Shown here piece by piece: positions 33,877 to 41,660 of a stretch of 64,000 nucleotides of DNA (positions are counted from its first letter, which is position 1; every line of letters starts with the position of its first letter). The stretch is from NCBI RefSeq assembly GCF_000970025.1, contig NZ_CP009528.1, forward strand, positions 3,273,168-3,337,167. Direction: 5' to 3'. The position numbers were made by a program, and so were the translations under genes. The notes beneath the pieces were generated by a model. It had not been told where the DNA came from, did no database searches, and saw only the letters and a list, made by a program, of their open reading frames with translations. The stretch comes from Methanosarcina barkeri MS. Its GTDB lineage: Archaea; Halobacteriota; Methanosarcinia; Methanosarcinales; Methanosarcinaceae.

Positions 33877-34644
33877 TTATTTTTTCTCGACATTGAACTT
33901 TGAGATCTCCAGGAACCAATAGCCTCCTCTTAAGACCATTTCACTCTCCATGACCTTTATTTTGTTTTTGAACAACGGGCCGTCGGTAACAAAAGTATGG
34001 AACTCCCCGTTTTCACCACACGGATCGATTGAAGGATTGTGATTTTTCAGGTCGCGTATGAAATTTTCATTGATCTTTCGGCCCAGCCACTCTTTCCCTA
34101 GCAAATCGGCTTTGACGCTGAGCAAGATCGCCTCAAACCCAGAATCTATGAGGTCATTTATGATCTGTTCGGAATTCCTCTGCCAGAGAGGCATTATTAA
34201 CTCGAGGCCCAGTTCCCCACAGATCCTGTCTACAAGGTTTTTGTGTGTGTCAATATGCCCAAAAACAGCCCCATCTATTTTCTCCCCGCTATCCCTTAAA
34301 TTACGGACCACTTTTTTGAACTCCTGTTCATATGAAACAAAGTCTTTATGGATAAGAGGAATTCCAAGCGCCTCAGCTTGTGCATAAACCAGGTCAGGAC
34401 TGATGTCATGGGAGCCACGCCTCTGAATTTCCCTGAAGTTCAGAAGATGGGAGACCTCAAAACCTTTTGAGATTGCCCTGTAACATGCGAAACAACCGTC
34501 CTTTCCTCCGGTCCACGAAACAACCACCCTGCCTTTATCGATCTTGCTTTCATCGATTTTGCTTTCATCGATCTCGCTTTCATCGATCTCGCTTTCATCG
34601 ATCTCGCTTTCATCGTTCTTAATCGAAGTTGGATTGGTACTCAT
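33877..34644 (-). CDS. Diphthine--ammonia ligase-type ATP pyrophosphatase (Dph6/MJ0570 family)
   Basis: The family catalyses the last step of diphthamide synthesis on translation factor 2 with ATP and ammonia. The PP-loop is VVSWTGGKDGCFACYRA (about 36-52). Other family motifs are HDISPDLVYAQAEALGIPLIHKDF, GAVFGHID and HNPSIDPCGENGEFHTFVTDGPLF near the C-terminus. At 255 aa it is slightly long because residues 12-36 are a run of ESEID/ESKID pentapeptides made by a 15-bp repeat. Normal proteins begin near the PP-loop. The ATG at 34644 touches a GGGAG directly; a GTG close to the PP-loop is an alternative start. Confidence 0.87.
   Translation of the reverse strand: MSTNPTSIKNDESEIDESEIDESEIDESKIDESKIDKGRVVVSWTGGKDGCFACYRAISKGFEVSHLLNFREIQRRGSHDISPDLVYAQAEALGIPLIHKDFVSYEQEFKKVVRNLRDSGEKIDGAVFGHIDTHKNLVDRICGELGLELIMPLWQRNSEQIINDLIDSGFEAILLSVKADLLGKEWLGRKINENFIRDLKNHNPSIDPCGENGEFHTFVTDGPLFKNKIKVMESEMVLRGGYWFLEISKFNVEKK
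34536..34620. repeat. 15-bp tandem repeat at the 5' end of the Dph6 gene
   Basis: Five to six copies of tcgctttcatcgatc (plus strand), in frame, each adding five residues to the N-terminus of the enzyme. Confidence 0.95.
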
Positions 34645-35621: not shown

Positions 35622-36044
35622 TTGATTAGAAGCTACAGGAAAACAGATCTTGAAGAGATGGTAAAGATCTGGTACGAAGCCTCAGTTATTGCACATTTCT
35701 TTATCCCTGCCTCGTTCTGGGCTTCGCAAAAGAACGCAATGAAGGAGGAGTACCTTCCACTCGCCGAAAACTTTGTTTTTGAGGAAGAAGGGCAGATTTC
35801 AGGATTCATCTCCCTTGTTGGGAAACATGTCTGCGCCCTTTTCGTTGCGCCGGAAATGCAGGGTCGAGGAATTGGCAGAGCTCTTTTAGAATATGCAAAA
35901 ACCCTGAAAGGGAGGCTCTCTCTCAAAGTTTACAGAGAAAACGAGAGTGCCTTTCACTTTTATGAAAAGTGTGGGTTTGTGGCGACTGGTGAAGAGATTG
36001 ATGAGTATACAGGTTGTGCGCAGATCTTGATGGAATGGAAATAA
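35622..36044 (+). CDS. GNAT-family N-acetyltransferase
   Basis: A 140-aa acetyl-CoA-dependent acetyltransferase. It opens IRSYRKTDLEEMVKIWYEAS and has the acetyl-CoA loop LFVAPEMQGRGIGRALLEYAK (about 78-98) and the C-terminal NESAFHFYEKCGFVATGEE motif. It resembles the YjaB/PhnO type. Start is TTG with GGAAAG upstream. Substrate unknown. Confidence 0.9.
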   Translation: MIRSYRKTDLEEMVKIWYEASVIAHFFIPASFWASQKNAMKEEYLPLAENFVFEEEGQISGFISLVGKHVCALFVAPEMQGRGIGRALLEYAKTLKGRLSLKVYRENESAFHFYEKCGFVATGEEIDEYTGCAQILMEWK

Positions 36045-36180
36045 AATCAGGTAAATTCAAAAATAGAAAGGATCTGTTGACGGGCTGGAGATTTAAACAC
36101 GTTATTTTGAGGAACTGAGGGATTTTAATGCATTCTGACAGTGGGAACCATAAAAAAGCTGAAATAAAAAACTATGGGAC

Positions 36181-36450
36181 TTACTAACTCATCTTACTAA
36201 CTCATCTTACTAACTCATCTTACTAACTCATCTTACTAACTCATCTTACTAACTCATCTTACTAACTCATCTTACCAACTCATCTTACTAACTCATCTTA
36301 CTAACTCTTCTTACTAACTCTTCTTACTAACTCTTCTTACTAACTCTTCTTACTAACTCTTCTTACTAACTCTTCTTACTAACTCTTCTTACTAACTCAT
36401 CTGACTAACTCATCTGACTAACTCATCTGACTAACTCATCTGACTAACTC
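36181..36450. repeat. 13-bp minisatellite, about 20 copies, upstream of hsdM
   Basis: Twenty or so units of ttactaactcatc. Variants are grouped: first actcatctt, then actcttctt, then actcatctga. It ends 111 bases before the hsdM start codon. Confidence 0.97.
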
Positions 36451-36490
36451 TTATTCTTAGCAAAATATTGCTATTGACAGAAAATAGCGA

Positions 36491-36555
36491 TCAACACTTA
36501 AATCAATAATTCTATCCAGTATGCAAACTATCCTGAGTTACTGTTTAAGTGTTGA
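36491..36555. promoter_or_regulatory. 12-bp inverted repeat around the hsdM promoter region
   Basis: tcaacacttaaa (36491-36502) and its exact reverse complement (36544-36555) flank 41 bases, ending 6 bases before the hsdM ATG. The left arm includes a TATA-like acttaaat. This is a possible operator that limits methylase expression. Confidence 0.45.
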
Positions 36556-36561
36556 GAATCC

Positions 36562-38115
36562 ATGACAAAAAATACAGCAGGCTCAAACGGCGCAAATCTA
36601 GGTTTTGAAGAAAAACTCTGGCAGGCGGCGGATAAACTCCGAAACAATATGGACGCAGCAGAGTATAAACATGTAGTACTTGGCCTTATTTTCCTGAAAT
36701 ACATCTCGGATGCTTTTGAGGAGATGCACGAAAAACTTCAATTGGAAGTTGAGGAAGGAGCAGACCCGGAAGATCCGGAAGAATATCTAGCAGAGAATGT
36801 TTTCTGGGTGCCTTCCGAAGCCCGCTGGAACCATCTGGAGAGAAGTGCAAAGCAGCCTAATATTGGGAAAATTGTAGACGAAGCCATGGCTGCAATTGAG
36901 CGGGACAATAATACTCTAAAAGGCGTGCTTCCAAAGAACTACGCAAGGGAAGGACTTGACAAGCAGCGCCTGGGTGAGTTGATTGATCTTGTAGGCACAA
37001 TCGGCCTTGGGGATAAGGAAAGCCGAAGTAAAGACGTGCTTGGCCGAGTTTATGAGTATTTCCTCGGCAGGTTTGCAGATGCAGAGGGCAAGCGCGGCGG
37101 CCAGTTCTATACCCCGAGAAGTATAGTAAGAGTTCTTGTTGAGATGATTGAACCTTATCGAGGACGAATTTATGACCCATGCTGCGGTTCGGGTGGAATG
37201 TTTGTCCAGAGCGAGAAATTTATTGAAGCGCACGAAGGCCGTCTTGAAAATATTTCTATTTTCGGTCAGGAATCAAACCAGACTACCTGGCGACTCTGCA
37301 AAATGAACCTTGCTATCCGAGGTATAGACAACGATGGCATTAAATGGGGTGATTCTTTTCATAATGACCTGCACAAAGACCTGAAAGCCGATTTCATCCT
37401 TTCAAATCCTCCTTTTAACGATTCGGACTGGAAAGGCGAACTTCTTTCCGAAGATGTCCGCTGGAAATTTGGAGTACCACCAAAAGGCAATGCCAATTTC
37501 GCCTGGGTTCAACACTATATCCACCACCTTTCCCCAACTGGAATTGCAGGCTTTGTGCTTGCAAACGGCTCCATGTCTTCAAATACCTCTGGTGAGGGTG
37601 AAATCCGGAAAAATATCATTGAACAGGACCTTGTAGACTGTATGATCGCACTTCCGGGTCAGCTTTTCTACAATACTGGAATCCCAGCCTGCCTATGGTT
37701 CATTGCCCGAGATAAGCAAAACAGCGGTTTCCGCGACCGGAGCGGCGAGGTCCTATTTATTGACGCCCGGAATATGGGAGTTTTACGGGACCGTACCCAC
37801 CGCGAACTTACTGACGAAGAAATCCAGAGAATTGCGGGTACCTACCATGCCTGGCGTGGAGAAAAGATTGAAAGCGGGGAGTATGAAGACATCCCTGGCT
37901 TCTGTAAGGCTGCAACTGTTGATGAAATTAAGAAACACGATTATATACTTACTCCTGGCCGTTACGTAGGTTTTGAAGAGACCGAAGATGATGATGAGGA
38001 ATTTGAAGAGAAAATGAGAAAATTGACTGTAGAACTTTCGGAGCAGTTCAAGAAATCAGAGGAGCTGGAGACGAAAATTAAGGAGAATCTGGCAGGGCTT
38101 GGGTATGAACTCTGA
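36562..38115 (+). CDS. hsdM: Type I restriction-modification methyltransferase subunit
   Basis: Adenine-N6 methyltransferase of a type I system. The N-terminal HsdM domain covers residues 10-145 ([32 protein letters not shown]). The N6-methyltransferase domain follows, with AdoMet motif [15 protein letters not shown] (about 200) and catalytic NPPF in [13 protein letters not shown] (about 280). The C-terminus has a charged coiled coil. The 517 aa are intact and full length. The specificity gene is a relic about 2.7 kb downstream and no hsdR is present, so this is an orphan methylase. Between lie AlbA_2 relics and the Mrr-like nuclease. Confidence 0.95.
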
Positions 38116-38287
38116 CTTCCGGCTGAAAGAATCCGAGACTCTTGGCTTAAACTGGTTTAAAATTGATAAAAAGGGTAAAAGTAGGCAGATAAAAAGTAGG
38201 CAGATAAGTAGTCTGAAAGACTGGAAGATGGTCACAGGTTTAAAAATTCGGAACAAATTTGGATGAAAAACAGAATGGGTTAGTATT

Positions 38288-38662
38288 ATGGATCAGAAGA
38301 AGCTGCTGGAAAAACTGGAAGAGCTTGAGTGGGAAGACTTCGAAGTAAAAGAAGCAAGAAATTCTATTCCAAAGTTATGAATCCGGGCCATCTCCCAAAA
38401 GACCTGGAATCAATTATGAAAGATGAAAGAAGATTTCTCTATGCCCAGAAATCCCACAATAGCAAGAATCTTTCGAGCCATAAAACTCTCTGAGAATGCT
38501 GGCTCTGGATTTGATAAAATGTTTACCGGCTGGAAAGTCCATTACGGAGTGGAACCAATAGTTTCTGGAGGCATCGATTTCTACAAGATAGAGTTCCCAT
38601 TGAGTCAAGAAGAAACTACCAAAAAGACTACCAAAAAGACTACTCAAATGATAATTGAATAA
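38288..38662 (+). pseudogene. Relic of an AlbA_2/Schlafen-type putative DNA-binding protein (copy A)
   Basis: An ATG at 38288 starts MDQKKLLEKLEELEWEDFEVKEAR, the usual N-terminus of the family, then stops after 30 codons. The sequence resumes with parts normally about 300 residues later: NPGHLPKDLESIMKDERR, a frameshift, then MPRNPTIARIFRAIKLSENAGSGFDKMF and the Thr/Lys-rich linker. A large internal deletion and a frameshift have destroyed the gene. Intact relatives are about 450-490 aa and often sit inside type I restriction loci. Confidence 0.8.
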
Positions 38663-39091
38663 ATGGTTTCCGAGCGAAGAAATGAACTGCTTGCTGAAAC
38701 TCTACATGAAATCCATTTGATCGAAAAATGGGGCAGAGGCATCAGCCTTATACTTTATAAAGAGCCTGAAACCGATTTTAAAGAGGTAGGGACTCAGTTT
38801 ATTGTCACATTTAAGAGAAAACAGATGGAAGCAGAAGAAAAAGCCGGGGAAAAGGAAGTAACTGGGAAAACAACTAAGGAGAAAACTAGGGAGAAAACTA
38901 GGGAGAAAACTAGGGAGAAAATCATTTTCCTGATTAAAGAAAATCCTTCTATAACTACAAAAGAACTGACCGAAAAATTGGATATTACTGACAAAGGCGT
39001 CGAATGGCAAATTAAAAACTTGAAGGATGAGAAAATTCTCAAAAGGGTAGGCCCTACTAAAGGCGGCCACTGGGAAATTCTTGAGAAATGA
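38663..39091 (+). pseudogene. 3' fragment of a second AlbA_2-type protein, winged-helix end (copy B)
   Basis: Joined directly to copy A. It begins inside the family's ERRNELLAETLHEIHLIEKWGRGI segment and runs to a C-terminal winged helix (about 90-142: NPSITTKELTEKLDITDKGVEWQIKNLKDEKILKRVG). The linker contains a 15-bp tandem repeat that encodes EKTR. It lacks the nucleotide/DNA-binding N-terminal domain. The frame is open, so a small helix-turn-helix protein could still be made from the ATG at 38663, but no good ribosome site is visible. Confidence 0.75.
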
Positions 39092-39130
39092 AATTCTGAC
39101 CCGTACAACCGTATTACCTTATTGGGTCGT

Positions 39131-39158
39131 TCTTGTCACGCTCGACGAAGGAGAGCGG
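39131..39158 (+). repeat. 28-bp inverted repeat, left copy
   Basis: Exact reverse complement of 41427-41454. Each copy contains the small hairpin cgctc-gacgaagga-gagcg. Similarity continues imperfectly inward. The pair encloses the nuclease gene and the hsdS relic. Confidence 0.95.
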
Positions 39159-39342
39159 CCTTTCCGATAATATCATAAAAGAAGAAACAGCAGAACTAAA
39201 CGCCAGCCTGCTAGATACGAAATGCAAAAGGTCTTTACAAGTTGATTAAATTTGTAACATAAGATATTTATTTATAATTTATATTGAACTTGTGTACCCC
39301 TATTGACAGAGAGCCTTACTAAATATAGTCTAAGATGAGAGA

Positions 39343-40686
39343 ATGAATCAAGAACTTATACTTAAGAATATAAATGGTTTTGAATTTGAAGAACTTGTAG
39401 CAGATATCTTTAGGAAGAAGGGATTTAAAAACGTAGTAGTCACACCACGTACAAACGACGGTGGAAAAGATATCATAATGGATGAAGTTTCTCCTTCTGG
39501 AGAAATTATTAAAGCTGTAGTGGAGTGTAAGCATCATAAAACTGGGATAGGAAGACCTGTAGTTCAAAAATTACATTCTGCTGTATCTACCTTAGAATAC
39601 TCTGGCAAGAAAAAAGGGTATATTGTATCTTCCAGTACTTTTACTGATACTGCTGTTGATTATGTAGAAAAAGTAAACAAACAATCAAACAATTTGGTAT
39701 TAGAACTAATTGATGGTAAGAAATTAAAAGAAATTGCATGTGATTTAGGTGTAAATTTAAAAAATGGTGTTATAGAAGCAATCAGTAATAAAAGCGTATC
39801 TTATTCTTCAGAATCATTTATTAAAACAAACACTTTAGAGTCTAACTTTAACAATGTTAATAATATAAACAAAGATCAAGTTTCAGTTGAAGGTTTAAAA
39901 ACCACATTTCATCCAATTTATTACATCAATTATAATATAGATTCTCAATGTGCCACCTCTGTAGGAGTTATACATGAAGAATCAGGAAACGAACAGTTAA
40001 TAATTGATGGTAGAACCGGCAATGAATTGAAAAACGAACTTGAGAATTTTCTTTTAAATGATATAAACAATGAAAAAGAAATTACAAATGGCAGTTGTTT
40101 ACAAGATAAATTAGATTTTCAAAAAAATGAAAATGAGTTGAAAAATCAAGCAATTTCAGAAATCATTAATTCACGCACAAAAAACGTTACTTATAAAGGA
40201 AAAAATAATGTTACTTACAACAAAAAATGTACTCCAAGACCCAAAGATATTACTATCCATGACTGTAGATCATTGTATTATCCTGAATGGACTTTAAACA
40301 TCAAAGCTAAACAAAAAAACTATATTGTATCATTTTTAGAATCGGCTGGAGACTTTATTACATTAAGAAACGATACAAAAGTTTGTCAAATCTGCAATCA
40401 TAAAATTGAGAAAAATAGATGGTATTGCACATATTGTGGGTCTATCATTTGTAAAAAACACCTTAAAGTAACAAGACTTAAAAAAGCAAGGATTTGCACC
40501 AATTGCTCGATAACTAAAAGTTTTTTTGGCGCTAAAAAATATTTTGAGTCAAATGAGGAACTCGAAACTTTCAATAATTACTATGCATCGTTGCCTCTGT
40601 ATAAAAAAATGTGGGAAAATACTTACCTTGTATTTGCTATTGTATTCATAATTATAATTGGACTTTATTTTTTGTTTTTGAATTAA
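39343..40686 (+). CDS. Mrr-like restriction endonuclease with FYVE-like zinc domain and C-terminal membrane helix
   Basis: A 447-aa protein with an unusual layout. Residues 8-125 are a PD-(D/E)XK Mrr-type nuclease domain: GFEFEELVADIFRKKGF, then NDGGKDIIM (metal Asp), then VVECKHHK (E-x-K). Residues 150-330 are Asn/Lys-rich without recognised motifs. Residues about 348-390 have eight zinc ligands in order CQIC, CTYC, CKKH, CTNC, the spacing of a cross-brace (FYVE/RING-like) finger. A hydrophobic helix, VFAIVFIIIIGLYFLF, ends the protein. The gene is intact and clearly more AT-rich than hsdM, pointing to recent transfer. No cognate methylase is adjacent. It may degrade foreign DNA at the membrane; this role is inferred. 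Confidence 0.85.
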   Translation: MNQELILKNINGFEFEELVADIFRKKGFKNVVVTPRTNDGGKDIIMDEVSPSGEIIKAVVECKHHKTGIGRPVVQKLHSAVSTLEYSGKKKGYIVSSSTFTDTAVDYVEKVNKQSNNLVLELIDGKKLKEIACDLGVNLKNGVIEAISNKSVSYSSESFIKTNTLESNFNNVNNINKDQVSVEGLKTTFHPIYYINYNIDSQCATSVGVIHEESGNEQLIIDGRTGNELKNELENFLLNDINNEKEITNGSCLQDKLDFQKNENELKNQAISEIINSRTKNVTYKGKNNVTYNKKCTPRPKDITIHDCRSLYYPEWTLNIKAKQKNYIVSFLESAGDFITLRNDTKVCQICNHKIEKNRWYCTYCGSIICKKHLKVTRLKKARICTNCSITKSFFGAKKYFESNEELETFNNYYASLPLYKKMWENTYLVFAIVFIIIIGLYFLFLN

Positions 40687-40831
40687 CAAAAATTTTTAAA
40701 AATTAAACTTATTTAATAATAGAGCTCATCCAAAACCGATTTATTTTCAAATTAAAAGGTATCACAGTCAATTCATTCCCGGTAACACTATCTTAGGATC
40801 AGCTCAACAAAAATAATATGGAGAAGAGCAA

Positions 40832-41272
40832 TTGGCCTCTGAAACAAAATTCAAAGAAACCGAGATTGGGATGATTCCTGAAGAGTGGAAAGTCAAAGAG
40901 AGTTAGGAGAAATTTCAGTCAATCTTGACAATAAAAGAGTGCCTTTATCAGCAAAAGAAAGAGAAAAAATGAAGGGAATTTATCCTTATTACGGTGCTCA
41001 AGGAATCATAGATCACATAAATGATTATATTTTTGATGGAACTTACTTGCTTGTAGCGGAAGACGATGAAAATCTAAAATCTCACAAGGAAAAAATAGCA
41101 ACTATTGCAAAAGGAAAATTTTGGGTAAATAACCATGCTCACATAATATCTAATAACGAAAAAAACGATTTGAAATTCTTGTATTATTTCATTAACACAG
41201 TTATGTATCAAAGTACCTAACCGGTTCAGTTCAGCCAAAGTTAAATCAAAATAATCTTAATAGAATTCTCAT
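40832..41272 (+). pseudogene. hsdS: Truncated, frameshifted type I specificity subunit
   Basis: A TTG at 40832 with GGAGAAG upstream starts ASETKFKETEIGMIPEEWKV, the typical HsdS opening. A one-base frameshift at about 40895-40905 leads to KELGEISVNLDNKRVPLSAKERE...GIYPYYGAQGIIDHINDYIFDG and HAHIISNN. Another shift near 41220 leads to GSVQPKLNQNNLNRILI, after which similarity ends. Only the first of two target-recognition domains remains, about 150 of some 400 residues. The product cannot give a working enzyme with hsdM. Confidence 0.85.
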
Positions 41273-41426
41273 AGTTGAGGATATGCAGCTAATCAAAAAT
41301 TTAGTGTCACGTGCGGCTGGAATCAATGAATTCCTTGAATAAAGGATTTTAATCTCATTTTTTCTTTTGTGCCTATTTCTGTGACTATTATTATAATGAT
41401 ATTCTTTTTGTAATTTCACGGAATGA

Positions 41427-41454
41427 CCGCTCTCCTTCGTCGAGCGTGACAAGA
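41427..41454 (-). repeat. 28-bp inverted repeat, right copy
   Basis: Exact reverse complement of 39131-39158, about 85 bases past the end of the hsdS relic. No transposase or recombinase lies between the copies. Confidence 0.95.
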
Positions 41455-41660
41455 CACATTAAAGACGGCTAAAATAGAGATTTTCTGGTGAAAATTGTCA
41501 CCTAGTTAGATTTCAATATACATTGAACTAAGAAATTTTCCAGTCACTTTTGCTTTAGAATATTTTTTGTTTTGCTTTAGAATCATTTTTGCCCGAAAAT
41601 TTTGCAATTTTTCCTGAAATATTCCTGATTTTATAACTATTAAAACCGGAATATGCGAAA

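Follow-up and report, generated by a model that had tools for sequence, protein, structure and literature searches.

Archaeal Mrr-type nucleases with a conserved middle domain, an eight-ligand zinc finger and a predicted C-terminal membrane anchor

Several described systems resemble the protein analyzed here. The Mrr-type (type IV) restriction endonucleases (Pfam PF04471) have the catalytic domain and the catalytic motif in common with it, but classical Mrr proteins have the N-terminal domain Mrr_N, which was not found in this protein, and the middle domain, the zinc finger and the tail anchor are extra parts. SNIPE is a membrane-bound antiphage nuclease that cuts phage DNA during injection (PMC13190303). 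Like the protein here, SNIPE carries a nuclease, a conserved middle domain and a membrane segment (predicted in our case) in one protein, and the likeness is an analogy of logic; in SNIPE, the nuclease is of the GIY-YIG type, DUF4041 is present and the membrane segment is N-terminal (PMC13190303). Neither DUF4041 nor GIY-YIG is among the Pfam matches of our protein and no homology to SNIPE was seen. By this comparison the protein is analogous but unrelated to SNIPE. A guard role against foreign DNA was proposed in 2005, in a survey of the nuclease superfamily, for the COG4741 membrane nucleases (PMC1189080), which also join a nuclease of the PD-(D/E)XK superfamily to a predicted membrane helix (PMC1189080); their helix, however, is N-terminal, their nuclease is a minimal core of another branch, and no zinc finger or middle domain is described for them. 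ZorD of Zorya is an Mrr-like nuclease in a membrane-based defence, and one relative of our protein matches the PADLOC model of this nuclease. ZorD differs in being a helicase-nuclease of large size that the ZorAB motor recruits (PMC12904381), and no Zorya motor genes were identified here.

The gene is located in a stretch of 64,000 nucleotides from Methanosarcina barkeri MS, designated here as the window (Table 1). An earlier note on this DNA had given the open reading frame as 39343-40686 on the forward strand; the strand and both ends were correct, and the frame is intact and encodes 447 aa. The protein consists of an Mrr_cat nuclease, the middle domain, the zinc finger and the tail anchor, in this order. 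The combination of nuclease, zinc finger and tail helix recognized in the earlier note is kept as one unit in homologous sequences: 41 full-length sequences (39 distinct, the window included) were compared, with identity down to about 30%. The layout was thought to be unusual, but it is instead that of a recurring archaeal family. This family is currently annotated only as "restriction endonuclease", and no description of the architecture was found in the open-access literature.

The low GC content noticed earlier is seen in the numbers, 28.6% in the gene vs. 39.9% in the window. Among the Methanosarcina orthologues, with the L006 rows left out of the comparison because they were read on the wrong strand, the dN/dS of the gene relative to G029 is 0.31 and relative to UBA293 0.20; judged from these values, the gene is under purifying selection. 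AlphaFold2 prediction with an alignment of only 3 sequences reached a pLDDT of 36.4 for the full length and of 53.7 for a C-terminal fragment, the latter being confident in the tail helix only.

Table 1. Features of the Mrr-type nuclease gene and of the surrounding island, in window coordinates.
Feature	Coordinates	Strand	Basis or remark
Variable island (~5.5 kb)	36042..41580		GNAT side to hsp20 side
HsdM type I methyltransferase, apparently full length	36562..38115	+	PADLOC MTase_I E 4.5e-239
Complete Mrr-type nuclease gene, 447 aa	39343..40686	+	ORF call; purifying selection
Mrr_cat PD-(D/E)XK nuclease domain, residues 7-131	39361..39735	+	Pfam PF04471
Conserved middle domain, residues 183-345	39889..40377	+	Matches no known family
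Eight-ligand zinc finger, C348 to C388	40384..40506	+	Spacing CxxC-x10-CxxC-x4-CxxH-x11-CxxC
C-terminal hydrophobic helix, residues 428-446, predicted tail anchor	40624..40680	+	Kyte-Doolittle 2.95
HsdS specificity-subunit fragment	40885..41220	+	Pfam Methylase_S E 5.2e-09; PADLOC Specificity_I E 2e-27

The nuclease domain was recognized by Pfam with the E-value 1.8e-26 (92.9 bits vs. the cutoff 21). Its catalytic residues, which were described as intact, are present as D43 and E61-C62-K63. D43, C62 and K63 are the same in all 16 sequences compared, and E61 is nearly invariant, with Gln in L066. With the nuclease as a query, a sequence search of PDB returned a weak match to AF1548 (E 0.055), and PADLOC matched the nuclease domain to the candidate system PDC-S02 and to mREase_IV. 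The Mrr_cat domain and the mREase_IV match would fit a type IV-like nuclease dependent on modification or structure, in which the middle domain would read modified DNA and the tail would set the amount or the place of the protein, not its target. The soluble archaeal Mrr protein HVO_0682, which cuts GATC-methylated DNA in Haloferax (PMC7521656), is a further point in its favour, as is the lack of a recurring methyltransferase partner in the neighborhoods described below. The N-terminal Mrr_N recognition domain of classical Mrr is, however, absent from the Pfam matches up to E 1, and the tail helix of all full-length relatives suggests that the helix matters. This alternative is considered somewhat unlikely, and it is a live rival.

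The middle domain is a fourth part of the protein that was overlooked in the earlier note. Pfam gave zero matches for the fragment of residues 183-345, and a sequence search of PDB with the middle domain returned nothing convincing, the single hit having an E-value of 0.15. A second archaeal Mrr group (L076, L077, L078 and L079) has a homologous middle part, with an hhalign probability of 98.5 and an E-value of 3.3e-15. In the proteins of this group, a zinc ribbon at the N-terminus is followed by the Mrr nuclease and the middle part, zinc fingers with the unit CxxC-x4-CxxH/C form an array at the C-terminus, and there is no tail helix. A profile of the middle domain of this group matched in 9 of 384 genomes. 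Other layouts were observed in L075, where TPR, Mrr, the middle domain and the fingers are followed by a different tail, and in L074, where the nuclease and the middle part are on two overlapping ORFs. As these layouts indicate, the middle domain accompanies an Mrr nuclease in every locus read. It probably recognizes a substrate or a partner.

The zinc finger has eight Cys/His ligands (C348, C351, C362, C365, C370, H373, C385 and C388) in the order originally reported, CxxC, CxxC, CxxH, CxxC. The full pattern is found in 40 of the 41 full-length sequences; the lone exception is a Methanocaldococcus protein, in which the fifth ligand is moved by two residues and the eighth is replaced by His. 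The dN/dS over the finger is 0.07-0.09 among the Methanosarcina orthologues, the lowest part of the gene. The conservation of the ligands suggests zinc binding. The finger had been called FYVE-like, and this is appropriate for the number and the spacing of the ligands but not for membership of the FYVE family (PF01363), for which Pfam gave 14.8 bits vs. the gathering cutoff of 27.8. Several zinc-ribbon models of Pfam also match the cysteine region, all below their own cutoffs. A sequence search of PDB with the finger returned weak matches with FYVE among them, and by the alignment with Vps27 and by comparison with FYVE domains, the eight ligands stand in FYVE spacing. FYVE domains have a phosphoinositide-binding motif of the RRHHCR type, and by inspection this lipid-binding motif was not seen in the protein. 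A basic DNA-binding finger was also considered and is less likely; its net charge is +11 in the window protein, while the haloarchaeal sequences look much less basic by eye. In the AlphaFold2 model of the C-terminal fragment, based on the 3-sequence alignment, the finger region is mostly at pLDDT <50. A role as a small module beside the membrane, either structural or protein-binding, is probable for the finger.

The single C-terminal hydrophobic stretch was correctly recognized earlier, and the next best stretch in the protein has a Kyte-Doolittle value of only 0.81. In all 41 full-length sequences, the most hydrophobic window is located at most 6 residues from the C-terminus, with a mean hydropathy of 2.38-3.38. 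Because the tail helix is kept in all 41 homologues and the full ligand pattern in 40 of them, down to about 30% identity, they are not a product of chance. The local pLDDT of the tail helix is ~76-87 in the C-terminal fragment. The hydropathy suggests membrane insertion, and the C-terminal position of the helix suggests that the nuclease is oriented to the cytoplasm. A membrane-tethered nuclease is a sensible reading, for which SNIPE provides an experimental precedent (PMC13190303).

Relatives of the gene recur in archaea. In a tblastn search against plasmid records, 71 records had at least 80% of the protein covered, at ~31-34% identity and all archaeal among the matches listed; the carriers are haloarchaea and Methanocaldococcus fervens with its plasmid pMEFER01. 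The Methanosarcina orthologues show 94%, 84% and 83% identity. A profile of the part downstream of the nuclease matched in 48 of 393 genomes and in 31 of 136 genera, the sample being the single phylum of the host. In the phylogenetic tree, the haloarchaeal group is apart from the methanogen and other sequences, and the Methanosarcina sequences are together, while the deep branching is unsure because of long branches and unsettled bootstrap values. No relative was found in viral contigs scanned with three queries, and phage records contained no full-length relative, only partial matches to the nuclease domain, none of them extending past residue 192. The outcome of the viral and phage searches neither supports nor excludes a role in defence.

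The neighborhoods of 48 loci were compared. The commonest neighbor cluster was present in 14 of the 48, a count to be taken as a rough guide because the ORF calls behind the clusters are mechanical and some are spurious in GC-rich DNA. Neither a methyltransferase nor any other partner was found repeatedly across these loci. Many of the haloarchaeal copies are surrounded by plasmid genes and not by recognized defence genes. On pMEFER01 the gene begins 11 bases downstream of the MCM helicase gene, and one plasmid copy is near orc1/cdc6. These positions, together with the frequency of the gene on archaeal plasmids, would suit a nuclease of plasmid maintenance or DNA processing, acting at the membrane in the replication, segregation or transfer of archaeal plasmids. 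The neighbors, however, vary from plasmid to plasmid, and the gene is chromosomal beside restriction genes in Methanosarcina and on chromosome-size contigs in several haloarchaea. This plasmid function is quite unlikely, and it is the other live rival. A cell-killing effector, that is, a membrane-bound nuclease activated after infection to cut the cell's own DNA, would fit from the anatomy alone, with a nuclease and a separate sensor-like domain; the gene stands alone with no recurring antitoxin or sensor partner, and this function is very improbable. As separate observations, the Mrr gene of one haloarchaeal plasmid is followed by proteins of the DUF7567, DUF7568 and HVO_2833 types (L030 7397-9863, minus strand), and neighbors like these recur on other haloarchaeal plasmids.

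The best reading, held tentatively, is that the protein is a stand-alone, membrane-tethered archaeal nuclease of restriction type acting on entering DNA. Nuclease activity, membrane insertion, topology, zinc binding, target and defence role are all predicted features in this reading. The N-terminal Mrr domain would cut DNA, the middle domain would probably contribute the recognition of the substrate or partner, and the C-terminal helix would anchor the whole chain in the cell membrane, the nuclease facing the cytoplasm. Held there, the nuclease would act on virus or plasmid DNA during entry, and its location, alone or together with recognition by the middle domain, would set foreign DNA apart from the cell's own. 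The reading of a membrane-tethered nuclease is supported by the conserved catalytic residues and the purifying selection, by the tail helix in every full-length relative, and by the recurrence on archaeal plasmids with no recurring methyltransferase or partner. One haloarchaeal copy with a SIR2 protein and a helicase within 6 kb, both matching PADLOC models, and the PADLOC matches to PDC-S02, mREase_IV and, in one relative, ZorD, are also in its favour. The many haloarchaeal copies among plasmid genes and the copy 11 bases after MCM argue against it. It is more doubtful that the family is, at large, a widespread archaeal immune nuclease, tail-anchored and with a hitherto undescribed recognition domain, which would tell foreign DNA by place as an independent counterpart of SNIPE. 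If it is true, archaea own a one-gene, location-based defence against incoming DNA that evolved separately from bacterial SNIPE, and this defence is directly testable in genetically tractable haloarchaea. Even if it is not, a conserved, undescribed domain tied to archaeal Mrr nucleases and the family behind a bare "restriction endonuclease" annotation have been identified.

The gene of the window belongs to a variable island. In four Methanosarcina genomes without the gene, the sequence matches the window up to ~36042, continues with a short spacer, and matches again from ~41580-41655. In two other Methanosarcina genomes, the site holds HsdM (truncated in one of them where the fetched stretch ends), a relative of an uncharacterized 364-aa ORF of G029 and a short segment matching the HsdS side, with several kb before the hsp20 side; HsdR was not identified at the site in these two genomes. 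The presence of HsdM and the HsdS-side segment at this site also supports the membrane-tethered, restriction-type reading. The Mrr gene of G029 and of UBA293 is preceded by a remnant of the HsdM 3' end and by the 364-aa ORF. The 364-aa ORF (L081 8489-9583) has no Pfam match, and relatives of it adjoin HsdM or the Mrr gene in three more loci of Methanosarcina.

The earlier note regarded the gene as newly acquired and as intact among broken neighbors. In two other Methanosarcina lineages, remnants of HsdM adjoin its orthologues, and the dS against UBA293 is 0.40, close to the 0.54 of the neighboring gene pgk, which argues against a recent acquisition and agrees with a gene already settled in the clade. 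Identity to G029 is 95.7% over the block 39095-40776 and 87.5% over the GNAT flank, and the dS against G029 is 0.083 vs. 0.212 for GNAT; this closer relationship of the block suggests recombination between lineages. Another Methanosarcina genome has a broken relative interrupted by two stop codons (L008 1501-1662), which suggests gain and loss. As for the neighbors, the HsdS piece and the RecG-like pieces are fragments as claimed, but HsdM appears full length. The RecG-like pieces are adjacent (38423-38662 and 38663-39091) and are similar to RecG-like (HATPase_c_4) proteins in their C-terminal part; the second also includes a winged helix. Outside the island, the N-terminus of the ORF at 33877-34644 (minus strand) consists of the short tandem repeats SEIDE/SKIDE, and in its counterpart at L081 5946-6416 another repeat unit forms a longer run.
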